From contig CALLLH010000020.1 of the NCBI GenBank assembly GCA_938082505.1, forward strand, positions 1 through 64,000: a DNA stretch of 64,000 bases, written 5' to 3'. Shown here piece after piece: positions 51,096 to 55,655 of the stretch. The position numbers and the translations under genes were made by a program. The DNA is from an uncultured Flavobacteriales bacterium (GTDB lineage Bacteria; Bacteroidota; Bacteroidia; Flavobacteriales_D; Sanyastnellaceae). Numbering within the stretch: the first letter of the stretch is position 1; each line of letters opens with the position of its first letter. The notes below the pieces were generated by a model. The model was not told the origin of the DNA. It ran no database searches and saw only the letters and a program-made list of their open reading frames with translations.

Positions 51096-54000
51096 ATGCG
51101 GTCGACCATCCAATTCTTCGTCAAGTACCACATCCTTGGAGACCTGCTCGTGTTTGCCTTGTTGGCGGCTGGTTGGGTCGGCATGGGGGGGATGAAAAGC
51201 AACTTCTTCCCCGTCACGGAATCCAAGACGATCGTGATTCAGGTGGTCTATCCCGGAGCCTCCCCGGCGGAGATCGAGGAGGGCATCGTGGCCAAGATCG
51301 AAGAGAACCTGCAGGGCATCGCAGGCCTGGATCAGGTGAAATCCGTCTGTTCGGAGAATGCGGGCAACATCACCGTTTCTGTGCTTGACGAGGACGAAAC
51401 CGATGAGATCCTCCAAGACGTCAAGAACGCAGTGGACAGGATCGCGTCCTTTCCTGTGGGCATGGAGCCCCCCACCGTATTCAAGCAGGAGGCCATCGGG
51501 GTGTCCATCACCTTTGCGTTGACGGGGGTGGAGGACCTCCGGGCGCTCAAGGCCGAGGCACGGCGCATCGAGCAGGACCTGCGGGCACTGGACGGAATCA
51601 GCCAGGTGTCCCTCAGCGGCTTTCCAGGGGAAGAAATCGAGGTCGCGCTCCGGGCGGACCGGCTCACCGAGCTGAACCTGACCATTGCAGAGGTCAGTGC
51701 GGCGATCAGGGCGGCCAACATCGAAACGACAGGGGGACGCCTCAAGACGGATCGGGAGGAGCTCGTCCTGCGCGGAAGGTTTCGCGGATATGATGCGGCG
51801 GCCCTCTCGGACATCGTATTGCGGGCCGACGCCGAAGGCGGATTCGTCCGGTTGTCTGATGTGGCGGATGTCCGGGACCGATGGGCCGACAACGACCCTT
51901 CGCGGAACTGGTTCAATGGGCGACCCGCAGTGGTCGTCACGGTCAACAACCTCACCACCGAGAGCATCCTCGAGGTGACGGACCTGGTCCGCGCCTACAT
52001 CGAAGCCTACAATGCCCAGGCCGATGAGGTGGGCACGGGACTCCGCATCGATGTGATCCGCGACAGTTCCGTGGTCCTGAACCAGCGGATCGACCTGCTC
52101 GTGAACAACGGTGTGGTGGGCTTCCTGCTGGTCGTCATCCTGCTGGCCTTGTTCCTCAACATCCGCCTGGCATTCTGGGTGGCCCTGGCCATCCCCGTCT
52201 CCTTTGCGGGCATGTTCATTTTTGCCGGGGCTGCGGGTGTGACCATCAATGTCATCAGCCTCTTCGGCATGATCCTCGTGATCGGCATCCTGGTCGACGA
52301 CGGCATAGTCATCGCCGAGAACATCTACCGGCATTACGAGATGGGCAAGGGCCGGATGGAGGCCACCATGGACGGCACCATGGAGGTGCTCCCGGCCGTG
52401 TTTGCCGCCATCGTCACCACCATGGTGGCCTTCGCTTCGTTCTTCTTCATCGAGGGCCGGCTCGGGGATTTCTTCGGAGACATGGCCTCCGTGATCATGC
52501 TGACATTGCTGTTCAGCCTCGTGGAGGGGGCGCTGATCCTTCCGGCCCACGTCGGCCATAGCAAGGCCTTGCGGCGGGATTTCAAGCCCAATGCAGTGGA
52601 GCGGGGCATGCGCAATTTCCTCGCGTTCCTACGGGACCGCCTGTATGCGCCTGTGCTCCGGTACTCATTGGACCAGCCTTGGGTCACCTTCAGTTCGATC
52701 GTGGCGCTGTTCCTGATCACCGTGCCCGGTCTGATCGGGAGCGGACTGGTCAAGACCACATTTTTCCCCTTCATCGAAGGGGACAACCTCACCGTCAACC
52801 TCAGCATGGTGAGCGGAACGCGGGACGCGCTGACGCGTTCTGAGCTGGACCGCATCGAGGATGTGATCTGGGAGGTCAATGCGGAGCTCGCAGCACAGCG
52901 GGAGGATGGTCTCGACATGATCCTGGCCGTGGACAAGCGGATCGGTCCCAATGCCCACACCGGGTCACTCAATGTCCAATTGCTGGACGGAGAGCGGCGC
53001 AACATGCGCTCCATGGACATCAGCGCCATGGTGCGGGAGCGGGTGGGCACCATCTATGGGGCAGAGAACCTCAGTTTTGCGGCCTTCTCACCGTTCGGGC
53101 GTCCCGTTTCGGTTTCTCTGCTGGGCAATGACCTCGGTGACCTTGACGCCGCCACGGCGGAGCTCAAGGCGGCCATGATGGAGCGCGAGGACCTGAAGGA
53201 CGTGATCGACAACAATCAAAAAGGCCTGAAGGAGCTCGAGATCGCACCCAAGCCCATGGCCTACCAGCTCGGATTGACGCGGGCCTCCCTGCTCGCCCAG
53301 ATCAGGGAGGGTTTTTTCGGCAGCGAGGTGCAGCGGCTGCAGCGCGGCCGCGATGAGGTCAGGGTCTGGGTTCGGCTGGACGAGCGCGACCGCCAGTCCA
53401 TCTCGGATCTGCAGCGCTTCCGTATCCGCACGCCCTCGGGGGGCTTGGTGCCCTTGGAAGAACTGGCCGATGTGGCATTGGTGAGCGGCATCACCGCCAT
53501 CAACCGACTTTACGGCGCCAGGGAGGTCCAGGTGAGTGCCGACCTTGCCGGGCCGGACGTCAGCGCCTCGGACGCGAATGCGGACATCAAGGCCAATGTG
53601 GTCCCGTCGGTGCTCGCCAGGTATCCTTCGATTCGGGCGAGCTACGAAGGACAGAACCGAGAACAGGCCAAATCCCAGAACAGCATCGCCGCCATCATGC
53701 CGCTCATTTTCGCATTGATGCTCCTGGTCGTCATCGTGGCGTTCCGCTCTCCGTTGCAAGCCTTTGCCGTGTTCGGACTCATCCCCTTCGGCATGGTCGG
53801 CATCAGCCTCGGGCACTGGATGCTCGGTGCGCAAATCAGCCTGTTCAGCATCCTCGGCCTCATCGCGTTGATCGGCATCCTGGTCAACGATGCACTCGTG
53901 TTCGTGGCGGCATTCAACAGCAACCTCAAGGCTGGTGATGACCTCCGCAAGGCAATCTGGGATGCGGGCATGAGCCGTTTCCGCCCCATCCTGTTGACCT

Positions 54001-55655
54001 CGGTGACCACGGTGGCAGGCCTCACGCCACTCATGCTCAACAAGAGTTTTCAGGCGCAGTTCCTCATTCCCATGGCGATTTCGGTGGCGTTCGGCCTCCT
54101 CTTCGTCACGGTCATCATCCTCATCCTGCTCCCCATCTATCTCTTGTGGATCAATCCATTGCACCGCTCGTGGGTGTGGGTTCAACGGGGCGATTGGCTC
54201 TCCCGCGAAGGGGCTGAGCCTGCTGTCCGCGAGGAGGAGGGATTCGAGGAAGAAGAACCTTCAGGCGGCGCACCTGCTGCCGGGGTATTGGGTGTCCTGC
54301 TGTTGGTCGGTGTGACCCTCTTCGCCCCGGGAAGCTTCTCGGCCCAATCCACGGGCGAAGGCCTTTCCAGGGAGCAGGCCATCGGCCTTGCATTGGAGCG
54401 CCATTATGGCATTCGAGTCGCCCGAAGCAATCAGGAAATTGCTGCCTTGGGCGATGATTGGGGCGCGGCCGGTGCATTGCCGCAGGTGGGGGTGTCGCTG
54501 GGCACGGGCACATCCGTGAATGACCAGACGGACAATCCCGGGACCTTCCTGCCCATTGCCACGCAAAGCCGATCGTTGGCGCCGGGAGCGCAAATGCAGT
54601 GGACGTTGTTCGATGGCATGGGCATGTTCGCCGCCAAGGACCGATTGGGGCTCGTGGCACTGCAGGCCGAGGGCAATGTGGAGCTCCTGGTCGAGGCCAC
54701 CGTGCAGGCCGTGATGAACGCCTATGATGCCATGCTCGTCCAGCAACAGGGGGTGGAGGTCCTGCGCTCAGCCCTCGATCTGACCCGGGAACGGCTGGAA
54801 CGCATCGAACGCGCGTCGGACATCGGCACGGCGGGCACCTTCGATCGGCTCCAGTTCGAGAATGCCCTCCTCAATGACAGCACGGCCCTGCTCCGCCAGC
54901 AGTCTGCGGTGCGCGCCGCCCGCCGCAATCTCAACCTGCTGCTCGTCCAATCCGAGGACGCAGAGTGGACCTTGACTTCACCGCTGGAGACCCCCTCCGC
55001 AGAGGGCGACCTCAGTGCGCTGAAGGCCGCGATGGCGGGCAACAACCAGGCTGTGCGGAATGCGGTGCTCTCCAAGGAGATCGCCGCCGCCGGTGTCCGG
55101 CAGGCCCGGGCGCGGCTCTACCCCGTGGTCGGGCTGACCGCCAATTGGGGCAACAGCCGTGGCGCTGTGGGCACGAATTCACTCATTCCCGATTCCGCCT
55201 TCTTCAATCCGTACCGCAACGGCGACATCTCCACGAATGTCACGAACTACGGTGCGACCCTGACGCTCAACTTCAATCTGTTCGGCGGCGGCGCCACCCG
55301 CCGTGCCATCCAGCAGGCCGAAATCCAAGTTGAAATGGCCGGGCTGGAACGCGACCGGCTCGAGGCCGAGGCCCACCATGCCCTCGCCCAGGCTTGGGAC
55401 CGCCGCAGCACGGCGGCCGCCATCCACGCCATGGCGGTTCAGCGGACGGGGAACGCCCGACTGGCGGCGGAAATCGGAGCCTCTCGCTACCGCGATGGCG
55501 TACTCAACGCCCTTGATTTCAGAGCCCTCGACGTGGCCGTTCTTCAAGCCGAGGCGGCTGAACTGGCCGCCAGTCAGGATTGGAGCGTGGCCCACTGGGA
55601 GGTGCTGCGCCTCATCGGCGGTCTCCGCGCAGGGGGCATCACGGACGCCCCCTGA
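51096..55655 (+). CDS. RND efflux pump fused to TolC-like outer-membrane channel
   Basis: 1519 residues in one frame. Residues 1 to ~1035 are an RND permease of the AcrB/HAE type: TM1 near 14-32, two large periplasmic loops, the proton-relay pair D401-D402 in GILVDDGIVIAENI, and the second-half motif GILVNDALVFVAAF. An acidic linker (about 1037-1058, EEE-rich) and a hydrophobic segment (1059-1077) with a signal-peptidase-like end (GSFSAQ, ~1084) follow. Residues ~1085-1519 are an outer-membrane factor with two OEP repeats (LSREQAIGLALERHYGIRVA; LNFNLFGGGATRRAIQQAE). Fused CusA/CzcA-TolC proteins are known in Bacteroidota; here the pump is of the multidrug-like branch (permease class by inspection). 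Confidence 0.93.
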   Translation: MRSTIQFFVKYHILGDLLVFALLAAGWVGMGGMKSNFFPVTESKTIVIQVVYPGASPAEIEEGIVAKIEENLQGIAGLDQVKSVCSENAGNITVSVLDEDETDEILQDVKNAVDRIASFPVGMEPPTVFKQEAIGVSITFALTGVEDLRALKAEARRIEQDLRALDGISQVSLSGFPGEEIEVALRADRLTELNLTIAEVSAAIRAANIETTGGRLKTDREELVLRGRFRGYDAAALSDIVLRADAEGGFVRLSDVADVRDRWADNDPSRNWFNGRPAVVVTVNNLTTESILEVTDLVRAYIEAYNAQADEVGTGLRIDVIRDSSVVLNQRIDLLVNNGVVGFLLVVILLALFLNIRLAFWVALAIPVSFAGMFIFAGAAGVTINVISLFGMILVIGILVDDGIVIAENIYRHYEMGKGRMEATMDGTMEVLPAVFAAIVTTMVAFASFFFIEGRLGDFFGDMASVIMLTLLFSLVEGALILPAHVGHSKALRRDFKPNAVERGMRNFLAFLRDRLYAPVLRYSLDQPWVTFSSIVALFLITVPGLIGSGLVKTTFFPFIEGDNLTVNLSMVSGTRDALTRSELDRIEDVIWEVNAELAAQREDGLDMILAVDKRIGPNAHTGSLNVQLLDGERRNMRSMDISAMVRERVGTIYGAENLSFAAFSPFGRPVSVSLLGNDLGDLDAATAELKAAMMEREDLKDVIDNNQKGLKELEIAPKPMAYQLGLTRASLLAQIREGFFGSEVQRLQRGRDEVRVWVRLDERDRQSISDLQRFRIRTPSGGLVPLEELADVALVSGITAINRLYGAREVQVSADLAGPDVSASDANADIKANVVPSVLARYPSIRASYEGQNREQAKSQNSIAAIMPLIFALMLLVVIVAFRSPLQAFAVFGLIPFGMVGISLGHWMLGAQISLFSILGLIALIGILVNDALVFVAAFNSNLKAGDDLRKAIWDAGMSRFRPILLTSVTTVAGLTPLMLNKSFQAQFLIPMAISVAFGLLFVTVIILILLPIYLLWINPLHRSWVWVQRGDWLSREGAEPAVREEEGFEEEEPSGGAPAAGVLGVLLLVGVTLFAPGSFSAQSTGEGLSREQAIGLALERHYGIRVARSNQEIAALGDDWGAAGALPQVGVSLGTGTSVNDQTDNPGTFLPIATQSRSLAPGAQMQWTLFDGMGMFAAKDRLGLVALQAEGNVELLVEATVQAVMNAYDAMLVQQQGVEVLRSALDLTRERLERIERASDIGTAGTFDRLQFENALLNDSTALLRQQSAVRAARRNLNLLLVQSEDAEWTLTSPLETPSAEGDLSALKAAMAGNNQAVRNAVLSKEIAAAGVRQARARLYPVVGLTANWGNSRGAVGTNSLIPDSAFFNPYRNGDISTNVTNYGATLTLNFNLFGGGATRRAIQQAEIQVEMAGLERDRLEAEAHHALAQAWDRRSTAAAIHAMAVQRTGNARLAAEIGASRYRDGVLNALDFRALDVAVLQAEAAELAASQDWSVAHWEVLRLIGGLRAGGITDAP
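55631..55653. terminator. Hairpin at the end of the efflux operon
   Basis: Perfect AGGGGGC / GCCCCCT arms around a 9-base loop, lying in the last codons of the fusion gene and touching its stop. The convergent DUF1028 gene ends 19 bases later. Confidence 0.35.

Follow-up and report, generated by a model that had tools for sequence, protein, structure and literature searches.

The window analysed here, a stretch of 64,000 nucleotides of contig CALLLH010000020.1 from an uncultured Flavobacteriales bacterium (assembly GCA_938082505.1), contains a single ATG-to-TGA frame of 1519 amino acids (51096–55655, forward strand) in which an RND permease, a joint and a complete two-repeat TolC-type outer-membrane channel follow one another. 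Judged from the sequences compared, this product is likely cut by a signal peptidase at the joint into a separate pump and a separate channel. On a wider scale, the RND–TolC fusions of the Bacteroidota as a whole are probably not tethered pumps but polyproteins with a Q-rule signal peptide that is cleaved by signal peptidase I (SPI); fusion would have arisen independently in at least four RND lineages, as a means of fixing the synthesis of pump and channel at 1:1.

The permease part exceeded the gathering score of Pfam PF00873 (ACR_tran; 515.5 bits, residues 5–1015). The hydropathy profile displayed twelve permease peaks and a thirteenth at about residues 1059–1077 (peak 2.57), which was followed by GSFSAQ with Ala1083-Gln1084. 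The conserved motif ...AEPAVREE in the tail of the fused permease was the same as the conserved tail of split permeases. In the channel part, PF02321 was detected in two stretches from residue 1093 on (140.7 bits). In the AF2 model of residues 850–1519, a canonical TolC fold with two repeats began at about residue 1088 and contained the long helices H3 (69 residues) and H7 (68 residues), and Foldseek matched the predicted channel model to TolC (1ek9) with an E value of 2.5e-19; the two PF02321 repeats and the fold place this part among the TolC/OEP channels. A helix was also predicted at residues 1063–1075 within the thirteenth segment, but the model was good for the channel and poor for the joint (pLDDT <50), and is hence uninformative on the joint. 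The adaptor gene directly upstream scored 98.3 bits with TIGR01730 (cut-off 94.9), and the N-terminal membrane anchor of its product had no [AGS]Q site. At the level of genes, the adaptor, permease and channel of a tripartite efflux pump are encoded together; a function in efflux is predicted. The features are listed in Table 1.

Table 1. Features of the fused gene and the adjacent adaptor gene (window coordinates)
Feature	Coordinates	Strand	Evidence
RND periplasmic adaptor (membrane fusion protein), 373 aa	49965..51086	+	TIGR01730, HlyD_3
Fused open reading frame, 1519 aa	51096..55655	+	Single frame; fused relatives
RND permease part, residues 1-1030, 12 transmembrane segments, Asp401-Asp402	51096..54185	+	Pfam ACR_tran, hydropathy, tree
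Cytoplasmic C-terminal tail, residues 1031-1058	54186..54269	+	Conserved ...AEPAVREE, then hypervariable linker
Thirteenth hydrophobic segment, residues 1059-1077, putative h-region of internal signal peptide	54270..54326	+	Hydropathy, predicted helix
Predicted signal peptidase I site, Ala1083-Gln1084 (Q-rule)	54342..54347	+	Motif counts; PMC5837995
TolC-type outer-membrane channel, residues 1090-1519, two OEP repeats	54363..55655	+	PF02321, AF2, Foldseek

The first-pass annotation of this DNA, made from the sequence alone, had described one uninterrupted frame from an AcrB-type permease to a two-repeat channel, a proton-relay pair of aspartates (D401-D402) in the permease and a hydrophobic segment ending in GSFSAQ. 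The ATG-to-TGA frame and the Pfam domains agreed with the first of these, the aspartate pair was present and invariant across the fused relatives, and the segment coincided with the thirteenth hydropathy peak. The linker in front of the segment had been called acidic, which applied to the copy in the window and not to all of its relatives.

A search through related genomes and named genome contigs found the fusion in 14 genomes, and the joint was read through in frame in all of them. They comprised six genomes of the window's genus (the window included), four of a second genus (G018, G311, G316, and G318), two of a third genus (G322 and G325), the MAG G308, and the apparently mis-binned contig L060. 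Genome G009, one of the six from the window's genus, had an assembly break, and both of its contigs read through the joint. The uninterrupted permease–joint–channel frame is thus a conserved architecture. Measured between ...REE and LSRE, the joints of the window's clade were 36 to 63 residues long, always in frame, and identity was 30% in the joint, 85% in the permease and 71% in the channel. An assembly or sequencing error, in which a lost base joins two genes, is conceivable, since the stop and start codons of the split relatives overlap as ATGA and a single-base mistake could fuse them there. However, the 14 genomes were assembled independently, they remained in frame despite joints so variable in length and sequence, and the fused and split states tracked the tree; the chance that the fusion is such an error is therefore negligible. 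A frameshift separating two genes, which the earlier annotation had considered, is likewise contradicted by the 14 genomes.

The MAG G308 had two copies of the pump, one fused (79%) and one split (74%), on contigs 52 (L156) and 25; these were either paralogues by transfer or contamination, which was estimated at 2%. Contig L060 (NZGD01000304.1) is labelled Rhodopirellula sp. MED697 (Planctomycetota), and its fused pump was nested among the Flavobacteriales copies, so that the contig looks mis-binned. A split copy from the window's genus (L067/L022, G003 contig 409) grouped with the split copies of another genus, and is probably a mis-binned contig or the result of transfer. The genome of the window also possessed a second RND pump (G000 contig 5, 63780–69577) with a frame of 1159 aa, which was unfused, its channel being a separate frame of 475 aa just upstream.

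In most other family members with this pump, three neighbouring genes encoded the adaptor, the permease and the channel. These split Flavobacteriales operons belonged to the same RND lineage and comprised orthologous genes in an identical order, with identities of 63–74% in the family for the permease and ~34–46% for the channel. They differed in that the permease and the channel were separate genes, usually overlapping: seven of the nine split relatives had the channel ATG overlapping the permease TGA by 4 bp (ATGA), and the genes of the remaining two abutted. A small frame change suffices for fusion. Two state changes were needed in the permease tree and likewise in the channel tree. When the fused permeases were forced into a single clade (enlarged row set), the likelihood was 151 log units worse, with a p-AU of 8.6e-30. 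Since a single fused clade was rejected, the phylogenies indicate that at least two fusion events occurred in this lineage, one ahead of the split between the window's genus and its sister, the other in G322/G325. Two recent fusions in one family, beside sister species that are still split, offer a natural before-and-after comparison.

The permease had previously been regarded as AcrB-type and multidrug-like. It does carry the HAE-type Asp-Asp pair, but it scored far below the cut-offs of the HAE-1 models (TIGR00915, 288 bits vs. 940; NF033617, 436 vs. 1250) and also below that of the HME model (TIGR00914, 242 vs. 701). In a tree that contained AcrB, MdtC, CusA, Bacteroidota HAE-1 pumps and HME fusions, it formed a clade of its own (SH-aLRT 100) outside HAE-1 (AcrB, MdtC) and outside HME (CusA). 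The comparison with the HME and HAE branches, which had been proposed as a check, thus assigned the permease to neither HME nor HAE-1. The closest chains among the PDB sequence matches listed were generic RND efflux pumps, and "multidrug" as a substrate label is a guess. AcrB uses a lysine in TM10. Inspected by eye, TM10 of the window permease (53874–53940, about residues 927–948; ILVNDALVF) was apparently without lysine, which suggests that the proton relay may be altered in this clade.

The hydrophobic segment of the joint terminated in [A/G]Q in 14/14 fused genomes (read by eye). The same reading found a hydrophobic-[A/S/G]Q joint in all 42 other Bacteroidota RND–TolC fusions examined, which were HME (CusA/CzcA) proteins from many families, one HAE-1 protein (L048) and one protein of another RND class (L047). 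An automated count, in which [AGS]Q had to lie within 14 residues of a hydrophobic peak, gave 51/51 joints vs. 66/619 of the remaining hydrophobic peaks in these proteins; L059 and L047 were left unscored since no separate joint peak fell within the threshold and position limits, and by eye they read VEAQ and AKAQ. As a positive control, the motif occurred in 43/44 N-terminal signal peptides of split channels, and as a negative control in 0/45 N-terminal anchors of the partner adaptors, although all of these counts are of related sequences and hence non-independent. The adaptor anchors were the best negative control, as they come from the same operons, have the same orientation as the joint and are retained. 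The resemblance of the joint to a Bacteroidota signal peptide, noted in the first-pass annotation, was supported.

Glutamine at position +1 is the signal peptidase I rule of the Bacteroidetes; it was found in a mean of 71% of the SPI substrates per species, and 332 of 334 species had it in more than 48% of them (PMC5837995). Within the window, 13 of about 15 secreted non-lipoprotein signal peptides had Gln at +1. At the motif level, the joint corresponds to an SPI substrate, with a hydrophobic core, a small residue at −1 and Gln at +1. The residues before the hydrophobic segment of the window joint were acidic, whereas signal peptides usually have a basic n-region. The window site, SFSA before Q, had Phe at −3, which was less usual than in most relatives and also occurred in 2/43 signal peptides of split channels; a cut between Ser and Ala, one residue upstream of Ala1083-Gln1084, is a possible alternative. 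Taken together, the joint behaves like a signal peptide maintained by selection. The ancestral signal peptide may account for the motif in part, but passive retention of the motif is unlikely because the joint as a whole is only 30% identical.

The C-terminus of AcrB-type RND pumps is cytoplasmic. With the permease ending in the cytoplasm and the channel in the periplasm, a further passage of the chain through the inner membrane is required. Here, the earlier annotation had left two possibilities, a cleaved joint or a tether. An uncleaved product would be a single chain that kept the thirteenth segment as a lasting transmembrane helix, and its fusion would force a 3:3 assembly of the pump; the continuous chain, the equal numbers of subunits in the TolC and RND trimers and the adequate length of the hydrophobic segment are all consistent with it. 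However, the hydrophobic segment is separated from the first channel helix by only 9–13 residues, which span at most ~46 Å when fully stretched, and in G325 and L054/G316 the joint Gln is just 2 residues ahead of the channel domain. The periplasmic part of AcrB is 40 + 30 Å high, i.e., 70 Å, and the N-terminal helix H1 of the OMF lies within the equatorial domain, halfway along the 100-Å alpha-barrel (PMC8277102); on these values, at least ~120 Å would have to be bridged even without the adaptor. In a tip-to-tip pump bridged by the adaptor, the distance exceeds ~120 Å (PMC5404916). An uncut chain with so few residues thus seems incompatible with the known architecture, as given by E. coli and Pseudomonas structures, and it would require a type of pump architecture that no solved structure shows. 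It also leaves unexplained why [A/G]Q was kept in a segment that otherwise changed freely. We therefore consider a lasting tether improbable, and the motif conservation and the short linker strongly favour cleavage.

Under another explanation, the channel is additionally translated on its own from a start inside the joint, and the continuity of the frame is incidental. In some relatives, a Met does stand a little ahead of the hydrophobic segment (G018: MGPKLGTWASVG...; L058: GKAMSVLVI...). However, the start codon was not conserved among the relatives: the window offers only TTG or GTG, inside the hydrophobic segment, and other relatives were likewise without a suitably placed ATG. Moreover, read-through would yield the full-length chain regardless. 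An internal start was rejected for want of a conserved start codon, and its probability is very low, well under that of the tether.

Cleavage by signal peptidase I would fit the following course of events. In an ancestral adaptor–permease–channel operon, a small frame change would have joined the permease stop and the channel start at their ATGA overlap, and the ribosome would since have produced pump and channel as a single co-translated chain. The former signal peptide of the channel would have become an internal signal sequence, a thirteenth segment running from the cytoplasm to the periplasm, which would route the channel through Sec. Signal peptidase I would cut after Ala1083 and leave the channel with a new N-terminus, Gln1084, which is expected to be converted into pyroglutamate. 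The freed channel would then reach the outer membrane and form an ordinary TolC trimer, and the permease would be kept in the inner membrane with a short additional C-terminal helix. The outcome would be an ordinary tripartite pump with a pump:channel synthesis fixed at 1:1, and a gain from this fixed ratio is plausible. If the two parts are cut from each other, as the data indicate, a polyprotein strategy that is rare in bacteria would be widespread, with the exact residue of the cut predicted.

RND–TolC fusions as such are already known and are common in Bacteroidota genome annotation. A search of the literature outside subscription journals returned no work on RND–TolC fusion or its processing, the literature searched did not address whether the products stay joined, and the available part of the Chem Rev review described no such fusion. 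Within this literature, three points are new: a fusion in an RND clade outside HME and HAE-1; two separate recent origins from an overlapping operon; and evidence for a signal-peptidase-I grammar retained at the joints of the fusions examined, which cover several RND classes. The best-matching PDB chains listed included no fused chain of more than 1069 aa. Full-length fusions also turned up in a plasmid search, in which the 25 records listed with the best coverage were all from Bacteroidota.

The CusA/CzcA (HME-RND)–TolC fusions of Bacteroidota, of ~1440–1470 aa and annotated as CusA/CzcA family heavy metal efflux RND transporter, have the same layout as the window protein: a permease, a short cytoplasmic linker, a hydrophobic segment ending in [ASG]Q and a two-repeat TolC in one frame. 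A cleavable joint had been thought to set the window protein apart from them, which was not the case, as the same joint was present in all 42 other fusions examined. It is distinguished instead by its permease, which is not HME and belongs to a different clade, by its linker, which is acidic or neutral in the window's lineage and basic in CusA/CzcA–TolC, and by its origin, the fusion in this lineage having arisen separately, recently and twice. Another Flavobacteriales family contained an HAE-1 permease–TolC fusion with a ...SLQAQ joint (L048; G037 contig 102, 1509–5918, forward strand); it differed in its true HAE-1 permease (NF033617, 1092 bits) and represented a separate clade and a separate fusion. 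A further RND class was fused to TolC through a ...PAKAQ joint in L047 (G057 contig 3, 550–4938, reverse strand), the permease of which was neither HME nor clearly HAE-1. Outside the RND pumps, the fbcH gene of Bradyrhizobium encodes cytochrome b/c1 as a polyprotein, and its internal signal peptide was shown experimentally to be cut by signal peptidase. As in the window, one gene specifies two proteins, the first of which resides in the inner membrane and the second of which carries an internal signal peptide; the proteins themselves are unrelated, and the cleavage that is experimental in fbcH is predicted in the window protein.
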